Position numbers and translations under genes: made by a program. From Tumebacillus lacus (GTDB lineage: Bacteria; Bacillota; Bacilli; Tumebacillales; Tumebacillaceae), in contig NZ_JAPMLT010000012.1 of the NCBI RefSeq assembly GCF_026410385.1, positions 1 to 64,000 on the forward strand: DNA of 64,000 nt. The letters are read 5' to 3'. Shown in pieces: positions 44-7,223 of this stretch; positions within the stretch are counted from its first letter, which is position 1, and each line of letters opens with the position of its first letter. The notes beneath the pieces are model-generated. The model was not told the DNA's origin, made no database searches, and was given only the letters and a program-made list of their open reading frames with translations.

Positions 44-1234
44 CTATGAACGCTCGGCCATATTATCCGTCAACCTTTGGACATTAGACGCAGTCAGTTT
101 TCGGACAATATAGGGCGGTAATAACAGATACTCCATGAATAGTTCGGAATCACCAGACGACTTGTAATAACCTATCAAAAATTTGTAAGACAGATAACGT
201 ATATCTTTTTCACACTTATTATCATCTGCAACTGCCCGTGCATTCTCTGGAGAATTACGCAGAATGGAAAGAAGCAACATGTTTTTTGCCTTCAGCTTTG
301 GTAATTCGTAGCCTTCAAGATCGGATAGTGCTGACAAAATGATATCTTCTGCCTCCGCTTTCTCACCCAGTTTGATCAGGCATTTTGCCAGTTCTTTTTT
401 TGCTATGAAAGAAGAGATTGGATCTTGCTGTAGTTCTTCGAGAGCTAACACTAGCAAGTGCCTAGCCTCTTTATACTCCCTTAGCTTGAATTCGAAGTGA
501 GCCGCGTTGATGAGGGCTCTGCCGATGACGTTTGAATTATTTGACGAACGTGCGTACTTCAATGAGTCATAGGACACTTCTCTTGCTGTCTGGACCTCGC
601 CTAACGACTCTAAAAGCTTTGATCTTGAATAGGTGAGGGACGCGGATTTGATTGGGGTTGTAAGAAAATAATCTTCAACCATTGCCAGCAGTTCTGCGGC
701 CCTTGTAAAGTCCTTGCGAATGGTGTAGGTGGTGACAAGGTTGCTGATGATGGAGTATAGAAGATCCGTTTCACCGTACTTATCATAAATCGCCTTTGCG
801 AGATCGTACGCCTCTAACCACGCCTGATGAGCCGGTTCGTACTGGTGCAAATTCTTATGTGCCTGACCCAAGTAAAAAAGAGTTTTGCACCTTTCAGTCA
901 TGCCGATGGCGACTGATTGTAAGTGATTTGCTATCTCCAACGCTCGCTTGGGATCTCTCCCTTCATGCTTTAGCAATTGTTGAAGTTCGGAGAGCATCAA
1001 CCAGGTATCTTGTTGTTTGATACGTTCGACGGACAGTTTCAGATCAACACAAATCTTCTTTACTTCAAAATCATAGATCTCTCGGCCGCCATGCAACATC
1101 AATCGTAACGTTTCACGAGATACTCCTATGCGTTTTCCCATCGCTTGATGAGAGTAGGCGCTCCCCTTCTCTTTCATAATTTCTGCAATTCTTCTTCCCA
1201 AAGGAATATCTAAAGAGTCTTCACTCACTCTCAT
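44..1234 (-). CDS. HTH-TPR transcriptional regulator (RRNPP-like)
   Basis: A 396-residue protein. Residues about 10-75 form an XRE-like helix-turn-helix (SHQAMGKRIGVSRETLRLML), and the rest is a run of degenerate TPR helices (for example FYLGQAHKNLHQYEPAHQAW and LINAAHFEFKLREYKEARHL). This layout is that of RRNPP regulators, which bind secreted, re-imported peptides through the TPR domain. No such peptide gene fits in the 43 bases left downstream of the gene, but a secreted 53-residue peptide is encoded at 2410-2571 on the same strand. A promoter (TGTACA, 17 bp, TATAAT) lies just upstream. It could instead be a TPR regulator that senses no peptide. The family call is solid; the ligand is inferred. 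Confidence 0.8.
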   Translation of the reverse strand: MRVSEDSLDIPLGRRIAEIMKEKGSAYSHQAMGKRIGVSRETLRLMLHGGREIYDFEVKKICVDLKLSVERIKQQDTWLMLSELQQLLKHEGRDPKRALEIANHLQSVAIGMTERCKTLFYLGQAHKNLHQYEPAHQAWLEAYDLAKAIYDKYGETDLLYSIISNLVTTYTIRKDFTRAAELLAMVEDYFLTTPIKSASLTYSRSKLLESLGEVQTAREVSYDSLKYARSSNNSNVIGRALINAAHFEFKLREYKEARHLLVLALEELQQDPISSFIAKKELAKCLIKLGEKAEAEDIILSALSDLEGYELPKLKAKNMLLLSILRNSPENARAVADDNKCEKDIRYLSYKFLIGYYKSSGDSELFMEYLLLPPYIVRKLTASNVQRLTDNMAERS

Positions 1235-1373: not shown

Positions 1374-1817
1374 TTATTTTATTTCTACACATGGTCGCGG
1401 CAAGCACAGCGTCTCCAGCGATTCGTATATGTCATCTCCAAATTTGGAAATATGATAGCCTGTCATTCCGAAAAGTTTTCCGCTTTCAGAAATAAACATG
1501 ATCATATTACCCCGGCAAGCTTCACCTATCACGACCAGTGATTCACCGATTCTGTCCTCAAACTCTTCAAAATCCTCGTACTCATACGCATCTCCCAATG
1601 CTCGATGAGGATTGAAATGAAAACTCTCAACAAAATCATTGAGAGGATATGAAAATTCTATACCCGCAAACATCTCCAGAACTCTCTTCGCAGCAGGAAA
1701 AACCGGGAACCCCCTCCCTTCGAGGAATTCTACGAAATCGGAAATGTCACGACTATGATTTGATGACCACCCCGAATCAGAAAGTACACGTATCGTTTTC
1801 TCTGAAATTCCACTCAT
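1374..1817 (-). CDS. SUKH-3 family immunity protein
   Basis: A 147-residue protein with the SUKH-3 pattern: an N-terminal SGW motif, then VEFLEGRGFPVFPAAKRVLE, and a C-terminal VVIGEACRGNMIMFISESGK followed by G-x-x-GYHISKFGDD. SUKH proteins are usually immunity proteins for polymorphic or contact-dependent toxins. No toxin gene is visible next to it, so this is an orphan or its partner lies left of the window. Start: ATG preceded by GGAGGTGCTGAA. The gene is AT-rich relative to the core genes further right, in line with acquisition by transfer. Confidence 0.7.
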   Translation of the reverse strand: MSGISEKTIRVLSDSGWSSNHSRDISDFVEFLEGRGFPVFPAAKRVLEMFAGIEFSYPLNDFVESFHFNPHRALGDAYEYEDFEEFEDRIGESLVVIGEACRGNMIMFISESGKLFGMTGYHISKFGDDIYESLETLCLPRPCVEIK

Positions 1818-2356: not shown

Positions 2357-2390
2357 GCAAAAAATCCCCTTGCCGAATAGTCAGGGGATT
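2357..2390 (-). terminator. Rho-independent terminator of the small peptide gene
   Basis: On the minus strand, AATCCCCT and AGGGGATT arms are followed by TTTTTTGCG, starting about 20 bp past the stop codon of the 53-residue peptide gene. This supports the peptide gene being its own transcription unit. Confidence 0.65.
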
Positions 2391-2409
2391 CAGTTGCTAT
2401 GACGCTTCC

Positions 2410-2571
2410 CTAACCTGCCATCACTAGATTCGGGGGAACGTACTCTGCAATTTCATAATCGCTACTTGAAAATGGGTTCGGTGGAACGTACTGGGCATTA
2501 TTTGAAGCAACGTTTAAGGCAGCCAACCCCATCCCAAATACTACGGCGCAGATCACTAGATACTTTTTCAC
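2410..2571 (-). CDS. Secreted 53-residue pro-peptide with YVPPN repeats, candidate signalling peptide
   Basis: Short GTG-initiated ORF with a strong ribosome binding site (GAGGAGGAATTATAG before GTG). Residues 1-25 are KKYLVICAVVFGMGLAALNV-like: basic start, hydrophobic core, then a small-residue region, as in a Sec signal peptide. The exported part carries two copies of YVPPN (residues 28-32 and 44-48) and ends LVMAG. Small, exported and repeat-bearing is the form of Phr/PapR-type pheromone precursors, and an HTH-TPR regulator lies 1.2 kb downstream. It has its own terminator (2357-2390) and an inverted repeat over its promoter region. The coding call is good; the signalling role is inference. 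A small secreted structural peptide is the alternative. Confidence 0.6.
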   Translation of the reverse strand: MKKYLVICAVVFGMGLAALNVASNNAQYVPPNPFSSSDYEIAEYVPPNLVMAG

Positions 2572-2606
2572 CTATAATTCCTCCTCATCTAAAATATCAT
2601 CGACAC

Positions 2607-2623
2607 TTAACAGTGTACTGTAA
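2607..2623 (-). promoter_or_regulatory. Inverted repeat over the peptide-gene promoter region
   Basis: ACAGT-GT-ACTGT is a perfect inverted repeat flanked by TTA and AA, 35-50 bp upstream of the GTG start. A weak -35 (TTACAG on the minus strand) overlaps it; the -10 is poor. It is a plausible operator, possibly for the nearby HTH-TPR regulator, whose own promoter also contains TACAGTA. Confidence 0.35.
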
Positions 2624-2720
2624 CACCTTCTGCGAGTCACCCGCTTCTACGTACTGTTTCTTAAAATCTTGCAGTCAGTCTTTGTGAGGTCATGTGAAGT
2701 GTCTTGGGTGGCCACTGATG

Positions 2721-2765
2721 AAAAGAGCCTTCTCACTCCATCGAGTGGAAAGGCTCTTATTTTTC
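2721..2765. terminator. Terminator-like hairpin repeat, copy 2
   Basis: AAAAGAGCC and GGCTCTTA arms with an inner CACTCCATCGAGTG stem. It directly follows the stop codon of the secreted repeat protein and has T-rich flanks on both strands, so it can work in either direction. It belongs to the same family as the hairpins at 2291, 4077, 4160 and 6082. Confidence 0.7.
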
Positions 2766-3956
2766 CTACTGAATCGATCTGACCATGATCTGCGGTGCCG
2801 CTTTATCCCCAGTCGTCGATTGTGCAAGCGCACCTGCCGTGCCGAGTTTCACCAAGAAATAGTCGCGGTTGGTGGTGGCGAACGTTTCGGTGTATCCGCC
2901 GAGTACGTAGCCGCCGTCTGCGGTCTGGTTCAAAGTGTAGAGGAATTCGCCCAGATTCCCGCCGTATGCGTTTTGCCACGAGATGGCACCGGTCGAGGTG
3001 GTCTTCACCAGATACATATCGAAGTCGGTGTAGTCGAACGAGTAGTACCCGCCGAGCAGGTAGCCGCCGTCGCTGGTTTGGAAGACGGTGTGCGCCGCGT
3101 CAGTGTAGGACGAGCCGCCATAGATCTTCTGCCATTGCGAATTGCCGAACGTGTCGGTCTTGATCAGGTACGCGTCGTTGGACGTGCTCGTTTGATAGCG
3201 GCCGGCGATGATGTAGCCGCCGTCGGTCGTTTGCTGGACCGCGTTGCCCATGTCGGTCTGCGTGCCGCCGTATGTTTTCTGCCATTTCAGGTTGCCGTAT
3301 GCGTCCGTTTTGACCACGTACACGTCGCTGGTGTACGGCTGAGTGGCATACGACCACGAGGTGCCTGCCAAGATGTAGCCGCCGTCGCTGGTTTGTTGCA
3401 GGGCGTTGTCAAACTCGCCCGGAATGTCGGCTTTGGCCCCGCCGAACGTTTTTTCCCATTGGAAGTTGCCGGTTGCGTCCACTTTCAGCAACCACATATC
3501 TTCCCCGGTCGCAGAGCCGTTGTTCACGTAACCGGAGACGATGTAGCCGCCGTCTTTCGTCGGTTGGACGGTGGAAGCACGACGAGCTTGGGCAAATTGC
3601 TGCTCCCACAGGAGCGTGCCTGCATCGTCGTATTTAGCAAGATACGCGTTGTTGCCCAAGTATCCGGAGACGATAAAACCGCCGCCGCTCACTTTTTTGA
3701 TGCACATCAATTCAGCCGCGTTCTGGACCGCCCAGACCAGATTGCCAACGGCGTCCGTCTGCATCAAGTAGTTGCCCCCGACACCTGCATAGCCGCCATC
3801 CACCGTTTGCACCACGGAATGGAAATGCTCATAGCCGCCTGCATCATACGAGGCGCTCCACTCGACCGCAGGCGGGGTGGCCGCTTGAGCGGCGGTCGTT
3901 CCGACCACGAGACTTGCTGTTGCCAGTAAGGAAATCGCGAGCTTTTTCGTAAACAA
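2766..3956 (-). CDS. Secreted beta-propeller-like repeat protein
   Basis: 396 residues starting at TTG, with GAGGAG about 10 bp upstream. It has a classical signal peptide (KKLAISLLATASLVVG, cleavage near AQA-AT). The mature part is about seven imperfect repeats of 45-55 residues built on QTxDGGYIxxG, xxYLVKTDxxGNxxWQKxYGG. This pattern occurs in secreted bacterial and archaeal repeat proteins predicted to fold as beta-propellers. No enzymatic motif is visible. The role is unknown; it is probably extracellular binding or a surface function. Its GC content is closer to core genes than its flanks. Confidence 0.75.
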   Translation of the reverse strand: MFTKKLAISLLATASLVVGTTAAQAATPPAVEWSASYDAGGYEHFHSVVQTVDGGYAGVGGNYLMQTDAVGNLVWAVQNAAELMCIKKVSGGGFIVSGYLGNNAYLAKYDDAGTLLWEQQFAQARRASTVQPTKDGGYIVSGYVNNGSATGEDMWLLKVDATGNFQWEKTFGGAKADIPGEFDNALQQTSDGGYILAGTSWSYATQPYTSDVYVVKTDAYGNLKWQKTYGGTQTDMGNAVQQTTDGGYIIAGRYQTSTSNDAYLIKTDTFGNSQWQKIYGGSSYTDAAHTVFQTSDGGYLLGGYYSFDYTDFDMYLVKTTSTGAISWQNAYGGNLGEFLYTLNQTADGGYVLGGYTETFATTNRDYFLVKLGTAGALAQSTTGDKAAPQIMVRSIQ

Positions 3957-4159
3957 AACACATCAACTCCTCTATGATTATTTCTGTTTGTAATAATACT
4001 TTTTATATAAATAATAGCCAATGATGTTTTATATAAAATAATAATGATAAAGACATAATGTCAAGAAATCGAAACAAATAGACCTCTCTGCTCATATGCA
4101 GAATGGCCTTTCACCTATTTTCTTACTAGTCGAGGTACTCTAAGGATGCAGTACACAGG
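3957..4159. other. Gene-free AT-rich spacer
   Basis: AT-rich sequence upstream of the secreted repeat protein, probably holding its promoter. It contains a degenerate hairpin repeat (4077-4111) with no gene end beside it. I see no coding signal. Confidence 0.5.
4077..4111. repeat. Terminator-like hairpin repeat, copy 3 (degenerate)
   Basis: TAGACC-TCT-CTGCTCATATGCAG-AATGGCCTTT followed by CACCTATTTTCTTA matches the other copies in core and trailing sequence, but its outer arms pair poorly and no gene ends here. It looks like the remnant of a terminator whose gene has been lost. Confidence 0.5.
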
Positions 4160-4195
4160 AAAAAAGCCCTTCTACTTGGATGTAGAAAGGCTTTT
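4160..4195 (-). terminator. Terminator-like hairpin repeat, copy 4, behind the leuB fragment
   Basis: AAAAAAGCCCTTCTACTTGGATGTAGAAAGGCTTTTT, split as AAAAAGCC and GGCTTTTT arms. It sits at the same distance from the leuB-fragment stop codon as copy 5 sits from intact leuB, so it was copied together with the gene end. Confidence 0.7.
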
Positions 4196-4206
4196 TCTCT
4201 TACTTC

Positions 4207-4450
4207 TTACCCAGCAACCCTCGCCGCCAGTTTCAGCACTTCTTCTGCCACCAGACTCCCCATCTCCGAGGTGGTCACCGCTTCGGTGCCCACCTTCGTC
4301 ATGTCGCGGGTGCGGTAGCCTTCCTCCAGCACGCGGAACACAGCCGCTTCCACCGCGTCTGCTTCCCACCCGAAGGAGTGGCGCAACATCATCGCGGTCG
4401 AGAGGATCGTCCCAATCGGGTTCGAGAGCCCGAGGCCCGCGATATCCGGT
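4207..4450 (-). pseudogene. Truncated duplicate of the leuB 3' end
   Basis: On the minus strand this encodes the last ~80 residues of 3-isopropylmalate dehydrogenase (IAGLGLSNPIGTILS, MMLRHSFGWEADAVEAAVFR, ending VLKLAARVAG and a stop). It is nearly identical to the 3' end of intact leuB at 6135-6384, apart from a 6-bp deletion (one TCTGCT unit) and scattered substitutions. Homology stops abruptly at 4450 (GATATCCGGT then CAAGAGGCG). The catalytic N-terminal part is absent, so it cannot be functional. Together with hairpin copy 4 it forms a direct repeat of about 290 bp bracketing 1.6 kb of foreign-looking DNA. Confidence 0.9.
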
Positions 4451-5716: not shown

Positions 5717-6081
5717 AGAACCCCTCCGTTTATAAATATATAAATACTTAGTAAGACATCAGTATCCTTCTGTTTTTTCCTAATAAATTCGAACCTATAT
5801 TTATAACAGCTTCCAAACTATATCACTAACTACTCATATCGAGAATGAACTAACCTCCGCATGAAAGTATAGCCGCTCAATATCCCTGTCGGGAAAACAG
5901 AGCGACTATCTCATTTTCAATGGCGGAGAAATTTATGATAGATTGTCGCATGCTAGATAAAAGCAAACCCGCCTACGCTAACTTTTAATCAATGGGGCCC
6001 ACCGATACCCCTGTATGAACCCTGCACGATAAACGCAATGATCGTTTTTGATGGACCTCATGCAGATTCGTTCACCACATG
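5717..6081. other. Gene-free AT-rich region
   Basis: About 360 bp with no convincing ORF on either strand. The left part (TATATATTTATAAA on the minus strand near 5730-5745) could serve as promoter for the TolB-like gene. The right part runs up to the leuB terminator. The composition is well below that of the core genes. Confidence 0.5.
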
Positions 6082-6118
6082 AAAAAGAGCCCTTCTACTC
6101 GATGTAGAAAGGCTCTTT
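6082..6118 (-). terminator. leuB operon terminator (hairpin repeat, copy 5)
   Basis: AAAAAGAGCCCTTCTACTCG / ATGTAGAAAGGCTCTTT hairpin starting about 17 bp past the leuB stop codon, with a T-rich flank on the minus strand. It is the likely end of the long minus-strand operon. Confidence 0.75.
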
Positions 6119-6134
6119 CCTCTTACTCTACTTT

Positions 6135-7223
6135 TTACCCAGCAACCTTCGCCGACATCTTCAACACTTCCTCCGCCACCAAACTCCCCATCTCCGAGGT
6201 GGTCACTGCTTCCGTCCCCACTTTCGTCATGTCGCGAGTGCGGTAGCCTTCCTCCAGCACGCGGAACACAGCCGCTTCCACCGCGTCTGCTTCTGCTTCC
6301 CACCCGAAGGAGTGGCGCAGCATCATCGCGGCCGAGAGGATCGTCCCAATCGGGTTCGAGAGCCCAAGTCCCGCGATATCCGGTGCGGAGCCGTGGATCG
6401 GCTCATACAGGGACACGTCCGGGCCGAGCGATGCAGACGGGATCATGCCGATGGAGCCGGCCAGCATCGACGCTTCGTCGGAGAGAATGTCGCCGAACAG
6501 ATTCTCCGTGACGAGCACGTCAAACTGGCTCGGGCTGCGCATCATCTGCATGGCGGCGTTGTCGATCAGCAAGTGGTGGACTTTGACATCCGGGTACTCC
6601 GGAGCGAGATCACCCACGATCTCCCGCCAGAGGCCGGACGTGGTCATCACGTTTGCTTTGTCGACGGAGTGCAGGATCTTGCGGCGTTTCTGCGCCGTTT
6701 CAAATCCGGCGCGGACGACGCGCTCGATCTGGCTGGCGGTGTAGGTGCAGGTGTCGTACGCCTGCCACTCGCCGTTTGCTCGGCTACGGCCGCGCTCGCC
6801 ATAGTAGATGCCCGCGGTCAGTTCGCGGACGATGACGAGGTCGGTGCCTTTTGCGAGCTCCGGGCGCAGCGGGCAGTAGGACAGCAGGACGTCGTGGACG
6901 CGGACGGGGCGCAGGTTGGCGTAGACGTCCAGATCTGCACGCAGCCGCAAGATGCCGCGTTCCGGTCGTTGCTCCAAGGGCAGAGCGTCCCAGCGGGGAC
7001 CGCCCACCGCACCGAGCAGGATGGCGGACGAACGGCGGATGCCGGCTGCGGTCACCTCCGGATACGGGTCTCCGCACTCGTCGATGCCCGCACCTCCAAA
7101 GGGATAGCTCTCGAACGTCATCTCCCGTCCATAAGCCGCTCCTACCGCCGCCAACACTTTTTTCGCCTCGGCGATCACTTCCGGTCCGATGCCGTCACCC
7201 GGCAACAGTGCGATGGATTTCAT
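6135..7223 (-). CDS. leuB: 3-isopropylmalate dehydrogenase (LeuB-type)
   Basis: 362 residues, the usual LeuB length. The N-terminus ALLPGDGIGPEV, the substrate region RPERGILRLRADLDVYANLRP, VRELTAGIYYGER, the conserved VDKANV, and the nucleotide region LYEPIHGSAPDIAGLG are all present. It catalyses NAD-dependent oxidation and decarboxylation of a 3-alkylmalate to a 2-oxoacid in the cytoplasm. The E-x-G-I/L-L segment that contacts the substrate side chain is close to canonical LeuB, so isopropylmalate is the default substrate. It is the last gene of the operon with leuC and leuD, separated from them by an amidohydrolase. Its 3' end is duplicated at 4207-4450. Confidence 0.92.
   Translation of the reverse strand: MKSIALLPGDGIGPEVIAEAKKVLAAVGAAYGREMTFESYPFGGAGIDECGDPYPEVTAAGIRRSSAILLGAVGGPRWDALPLEQRPERGILRLRADLDVYANLRPVRVHDVLLSYCPLRPELAKGTDLVIVRELTAGIYYGERGRSRANGEWQAYDTCTYTASQIERVVRAGFETAQKRRKILHSVDKANVMTTSGLWREIVGDLAPEYPDVKVHHLLIDNAAMQMMRSPSQFDVLVTENLFGDILSDEASMLAGSIGMIPSASLGPDVSLYEPIHGSAPDIAGLGLSNPIGTILSAAMMLRHSFGWEAEADAVEAAVFRVLEEGYRTRDMTKVGTEAVTTSEMGSLVAEEVLKMSAKVAG

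Follow-up and report, generated by a model that had tools for sequence, protein, structure and literature searches.

A Tumebacillus lacus gene for an RRNPP-type pheromone propeptide with two YVPPN units, very probably orphaned by loss of its receptor

The window, a stretch of 64,000 nt, is the start of contig C4 in the 4.18-Mb genome of Tumebacillus lacus. A small ORF runs on its minus strand from a GTG start at 2571 to a stop codon at 2410–2412 and encodes 53 aa (MKKYLVICAVVFGMGLAALNVASNNAQYVPPNPFSSSDYEIAEYVPPNLVMAG). The Shine-Dalgarno sequence GAGGAGGA sits 7–8 nt before the GTG and a strong intrinsic terminator follows the stop codon, which confirmed the GTG-started ORF, the strong ribosome binding site and the gene's own terminator described in the initial annotation. 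The N-terminus consists of MKK and a hydrophobic stretch and is signal-like as judged from composition, also as annotated. The peptide thus has the short length (10 to 100 aa) and the basic and hydrophobic signal N-terminus of a propeptide. The two YVPPN copies form a 21-nt direct repeat (86% identity). Between the two 8-residue units there are three synonymous and two non-synonymous codon differences, and neither of the non-synonymous ones falls within YVPPN. The features in and around the gene are as follows.

2410..2571, minus strand: very probable orphan pheromone propeptide gene, 53 aa, GTG start (ORF; family profile E = 4.3e-9, window peptide left out of the model)
2473..2496, minus strand: predicted pheromone unit 1, AQYVPPNP, residues 26–33 (motif register common to the family; direct repeat)
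2425..2448, minus strand: predicted pheromone unit 2, AEYVPPNL, residues 42–49 (motif register common to the family; direct repeat)
2359..2391, minus strand: strong intrinsic terminator 3' of the stop codon, GAATCCCC...GGGGATTTTTT (sequence and fold)
2572..2598, minus strand: probable surviving C-terminal codons of a lost receptor (DILDEEEL-stop), holding the Shine-Dalgarno at 2579–2586 (tail score 16.1)
2600..2674, minus strand: probable frameshifted relic of the lost receptor (..FKKQYVEAGDSQKVLQY..), in a frame different from that of the tail (C-terminal match E = 0.059)
2723..2758, no strand assigned: hairpin terminator between the YVPPN gene and the upstream gene 2766–3956 (16-nt arms, 88% complementary; fold −23 kcal/mol)

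Hairpin-terminator-like elements of the AGAAAGGCTCTTT type recur in the window at 2287–2331, 2723–2764, 4156–4201 and 6079–6123. This type gave 8 matches versus 0.6 expected, and its longer core pattern is absent elsewhere in the genome.

An inverted repeat overlapping a promoter had been annotated for the gene. Neither part of this claim was confirmed. The search of 2572–2720 found no promoter above chance: the best candidate had 8 of 12 matches, which 80% of shuffles equalled. Sigma-A matches were not above shuffles, and for sigma-H only poor partial matches were seen. The perfect arms of the inverted repeat measure only 5 bp, under the repeat-finding threshold, and the repeat falls within the decayed receptor-coding stretch. 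It was rejected as an operator (one exact copy in the genome, no excess over a reversed-pattern control, arms too short).

The peptide has relatives in its own genome and in related genomes, which include those of Tumebacillus permanentifrigoris, T. flagellatus and T. avium. The HTH-TPR regulator gene at 44–1234 of the window has six more family members in its own genome, and six related genomes each gave 5 to 15 detected members. Of 67 receptor ORFs, 57 have a small signal-bearing ORF at the 3' end, which mostly overlaps or abuts the receptor gene; of the ten that lack one, nine belong to three tandem arrays and one is a neighbour. RRNPP-type receptor-propeptide pairs number in the dozens in Tumebacillus-group genomes. 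In their mature parts the peptides keep to a common register, A-[E/Q/D/S]-x-x-P-[P/I]-x-P (in summary A-[E/Q]-x-x-P-P-x-P), and several precursors carry two to five tandem pheromone copies. A profile was built from 53 peptides encoded beside HTH-TPR regulators in Tumebacillus-group genomes, with the window peptide excluded. It matched the window peptide with E = 4.3e-9, while the next best of 445 small window ORFs reached 0.16. The initial annotation had suggested tblastn for relatives near HTH-TPR genes; run directly with the peptide within the family, this gave weak hits only (E 0.18 to 0.9), three of which turned out to be propeptides beside receptors. Weak matches of the window peptide first pointed to three loci (L016, L017 and L020), which the receptor search recovers independently. 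When the peptide profile was run against 299 genomes of the class, hits at E ≤ 1e-6 were confined to the seven belonging to the window's family. One peptide of the family is matched by the NCBIfam PhrA model. By sequence kinship with the propeptides of receptor-propeptide pairs, the YVPPN gene is a family member encoding an RRNPP-type pheromone propeptide, and the annotated reading of a secreted precursor with repeated mature units is supported.

Some members of the family depart from the usual arrangement. The propeptides of L071, L098 and L152 carry four or five pheromone units each, some of them diverged inside one precursor. At L153 and L161, propeptide-like ORFs (AEDLPATP and AGSLIPIP) lie about 120 nt behind a 776–779-aa protein which is not an HTH-TPR receptor and is possibly a different partner. 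L084, L088 and L095 are tandem arrays of two to four HTH-TPR receptors with no adjoining propeptide and with C-termini unlike the others (..RRFPYDK..); these are possibly eavesdropper or peptide-independent receptors.

No intact receptor gene adjoins the YVPPN gene at present. The sequence directly before the GTG encodes DILDEEEL-stop and resembles the C-termini of family receptors (DILDEGAL, EYLDEEEL and others). Scored with a matrix built from true receptor tails, it reached 16.1, which is the median of those tails; the comparison set was 296 starts that have a Shine-Dalgarno sequence and belong to longer ORFs of the window and the retrieved loci, and just one of these exceeded −1.3, itself a family tail. 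Further upstream, when the window's 1974 stop-to-stop fragments were ranked by their match to receptor C-termini, the FKKQYVEAGDSQKVLQY fragment came second (E = 0.059), behind the real receptor and ahead of a third at 0.98. A DNA profile on the relic region gave E = 0.001 with the Shine-Dalgarno and 0.24 without it. The relic alone is weak evidence, and the tail is the strong part of the case. A close orthologue of the orphan with an intact receptor was not found. Tail and relic directly upstream argue for former adjacency to a receptor, which makes the YVPPN gene an orphan member by descent. It would formerly have been the 3' partner of an HTH-TPR receptor gene that has since been deleted and has decayed to a relic. 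Most simply, the last receptor codons survive because they contain the ribosome-binding site of the peptide. It was concluded that a receptor gene was most likely once present and is now lost except for the end which doubles as the ribosome-binding site.

Similar loci were found by a genome-wide search with the peptide profile and inspection away from the first receptor set, which gave three more orphans with in-frame receptor-like tails:

L145: orphan with tail RILDEGEF
L147: orphan with tail NILFEEDL
L007: orphan with tail NLDDEEEV, in the same genome as the window (C22:40,115)

At L164 the receptor is in pieces before an intact AEISPPGP propeptide, and at L159 about 200 residues are gone from the middle of the receptor while the propeptide is intact. 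The peptide is intact in all four orphans in the seven genomes. Decay thus seems to pass from an intact pair, through a broken receptor with an intact peptide, to a tail with an intact peptide. The three tailed orphans and the two half-decayed receptors beside intact peptides indicate that pheromone genes can outlive their receptors here.

The HTH-TPR gene at 44–1234 lies on the same strand as the YVPPN gene, and the initial annotation proposed the two as a new pheromone-regulator pair. The gene is there as annotated, but it is itself broken by a transposon. Its relatives in the genome are 31 to 39% identical.

127..1234, minus strand: HTH-TPR receptor gene, 3' end cut by a transposon, probably belonging to a different pheromone (genome relatives; AF2 model; Pfam; 3' end on contig C2)
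1..126, no strand assigned: terminal part of a 3,017-bp transposon (contig C18) that interrupts the receptor gene (identical sequence at other contig ends; complete element; GTATC at both flanks)

The AF2 model of the window receptor (pLDDT 91) is all-helical, with an N-terminal helical domain and a TPR superhelix. In Pfam searches, 17 of 17 sampled receptors matched TPR_12 and 8 of 17 matched HTH_3; the window receptor protein alone gave no HTH match. Together, the sampled members and the model give an N-terminal HTH followed by TPRs, as in receptors with an N-terminal HTH and five to nine TPRs. Rap receptors have no N-terminal HTH. A Foldseek search with the model returned many TPR proteins, NprR, Rap and PlcR among them. 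Eukaryotic LGN ranked above these three; this is expectable for regular TPR superhelices, so fold rank alone is no proof of the RRNPP subfamily. A PDB profile search from the receptors reached RapJ and NprR. The receptors of the Tumebacillus-group family are of the RRNPP type.

The transposon cuts the receptor gene at window base 126/127. The complete 3,017-bp element on contig C18 encodes a 451-aa DDE transposase and a 266-aa AAA ATPase (named by eye from sequence; L048), and several identical copies break the assembly at contig ends. Five contig ends carry the other terminus of the transposon, and one of them, on contig C2, continues with the matching 5-bp duplication GTATC. Past GTATC, C2 gives the missing receptor tail ...HKRAEELQPSHSDILEEDDL-stop and then directly MKKRLLGLVAFVLTVSVLYHFENIAATLPVLPDSNQTHVAETVPIFPIISQGNV, a propeptide with AATLPVLP...AETVPIFP. 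The 5-bp duplication and the reading frame thus suggest that the receptor was joined to the AETVPIFP propeptide as its own adjacent peptide, now across the transposon. A receptor tree places the window receptor in a clade with four others, and these have the pheromones ETIPIGG, ETVPIIP, ETTPIGG and ETVPIFP. The use of ETxPI pheromones in this clade fits the C2 peptide and not YVPPN.

We consider it very likely that the YVPPN gene encodes an RRNPP propeptide with two near-identical units, orphaned by receptor loss and able to act only in trans. Pairing with the regulator at 44–1234 draws on the common strand, a distance of about 1.2 kb and the RRNPP type of both, but it is very improbable. Two unrelated genes lie in between, a receptor relic of its own precedes the YVPPN gene, the regulator's clade uses other pheromones and its true 3' end abuts the ETVPIFP propeptide. 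A different peptide gene directly downstream of the regulator had been named in the initial annotation as the observation that would speak against pairing, and on contig C2 it is present. It is equally hard to credit that the product is a small secreted antimicrobial or wall-active peptide and no pheromone. Short cationic signal peptides do resemble each other, and a SUKH-3 immunity-type gene is found at 1374–1817 (minus strand; Pfam E = 5e-21), the genes adjoining it giving no toxin match. Against this reading, the profile match sets the YVPPN peptide apart from all other small window ORFs, its relatives are paired with TPR receptors and a receptor tail lies directly upstream.

The origin by receptor loss is shared by a further explanation, to which we give nearly an even chance: that the gene has fallen silent, is no longer transcribed and is decaying, its intactness being due to chance or to a recent loss. 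It is favored by the lack of an above-chance promoter between the upstream terminator and the start, which counts against present use, and by the receptor relic being already shortened and frameshifted. Against it, the ORF, the Shine-Dalgarno, the terminator and both units are intact, YVPPN itself has no non-synonymous difference and the other orphans have likewise kept their peptides. Such intactness beside a decayed relic mildly favors use. That the gene is still active is a tentative reading, to which we would give somewhat less than even odds. It is rather unlikely, though conceivable, that these bacteria maintain a class of receptor-less pheromone genes in which the last receptor codons are kept as a ribosome-binding site and the peptide signals to paralogous receptors or other strains; if so, a signal persists without a dedicated listener in its producer.

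If the orphaned propeptide is in use, its precursor would be exported by Sec, as expected from the family and from the example of the Phr and NprX precursors (PMC11343458). Cuts close to the conserved alanines would free (Q/E)YVPPN-containing oligopeptides, which an oligopeptide permease could import and which would then bind in a receptor's TPR groove. Secretion, maturation and present signalling are predicted steps. With its own receptor gone, the peptide could act only in trans. Candidate receptors in the same genome are C4:104,028–105,116 (pheromone ASFIPPDP) and C22:40,586–41,674 (AETIPPNP), or receptors in other cells might respond; the choice is guesswork based on similar motifs. The receptor C12:525,293–526,333 has no peptide of its own. 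The F-x-P-P pheromone type otherwise accompanies the clade of L090, L091, L093 and L094 in the receptor tree.

The family resembles the Bacillus Rap-Phr and NprR-NprX systems (RRNPPA) in that a TPR receptor gene has a small Sec-type propeptide gene at its 3' end. In fold and profile the family's receptors are similar to NprR, Rap and PlcR, and one peptide matches the PhrA model. It differs in the proline-rich pheromone code (xxPPxP), in its confinement to the Tumebacillus family among the class genomes and, for the window gene, in the missing receptor. At least two near-identical pheromone units per precursor are also known from the tandemly duplicated Phr propeptides Phr3T and Phr105, which adjoin a working receptor and whose maturation is demonstrated, whereas maturation of the YVPPN peptide is predicted (PMC11343458). 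Orphan Rap receptors and "eavesdropper" systems likewise have one half of a receptor-pheromone pair alone; the YVPPN case is their mirror image, the signal being kept and the receptor lost (PMC5199041; PMC9765709). Duplicated pheromones and orphan receptors are already known (PMC11343458; PMC5199041; PMC9765709). Orphan receptors of quorum sensing are well known and orphan signals hardly described in the open papers searched. Among these, nothing on point was found on orphan propeptides with receptor tails or orphan Phr/pheromones, nor on Tumebacillus with RRNPP or quorum sensing. The proline-rich pheromone codes of the Tumebacillus group form a large set restricted to this lineage, and no paper on them was found in the open literature searched. 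With 5 to 15 detected receptors per genome and a readable decay series, the group's genomes would serve as a test bed for pheromones outliving receptors and for their use in trans.

In the NCBI taxonomy, Tumebacillus belongs to the Alicyclobacillaceae. RRNPP_detector counts candidate systems in that family, with Tumebacillus unnamed in the text (PMC10075063), so some of the intact pairs may already be in its lists. Its candidate subfamilies are likewise adjacent receptor-propeptide pairs; since an adjacent receptor is required, an orphan such as the YVPPN gene would be missed (PMC10075063).

Elsewhere in the window, the 3' end of leuB is duplicated at 4154–4450 and 6076–6384 (310-nt alignment, 89% identity), flanking two genes. 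A further leuB-like fragment is found on contig C2 at about 1885–2429.
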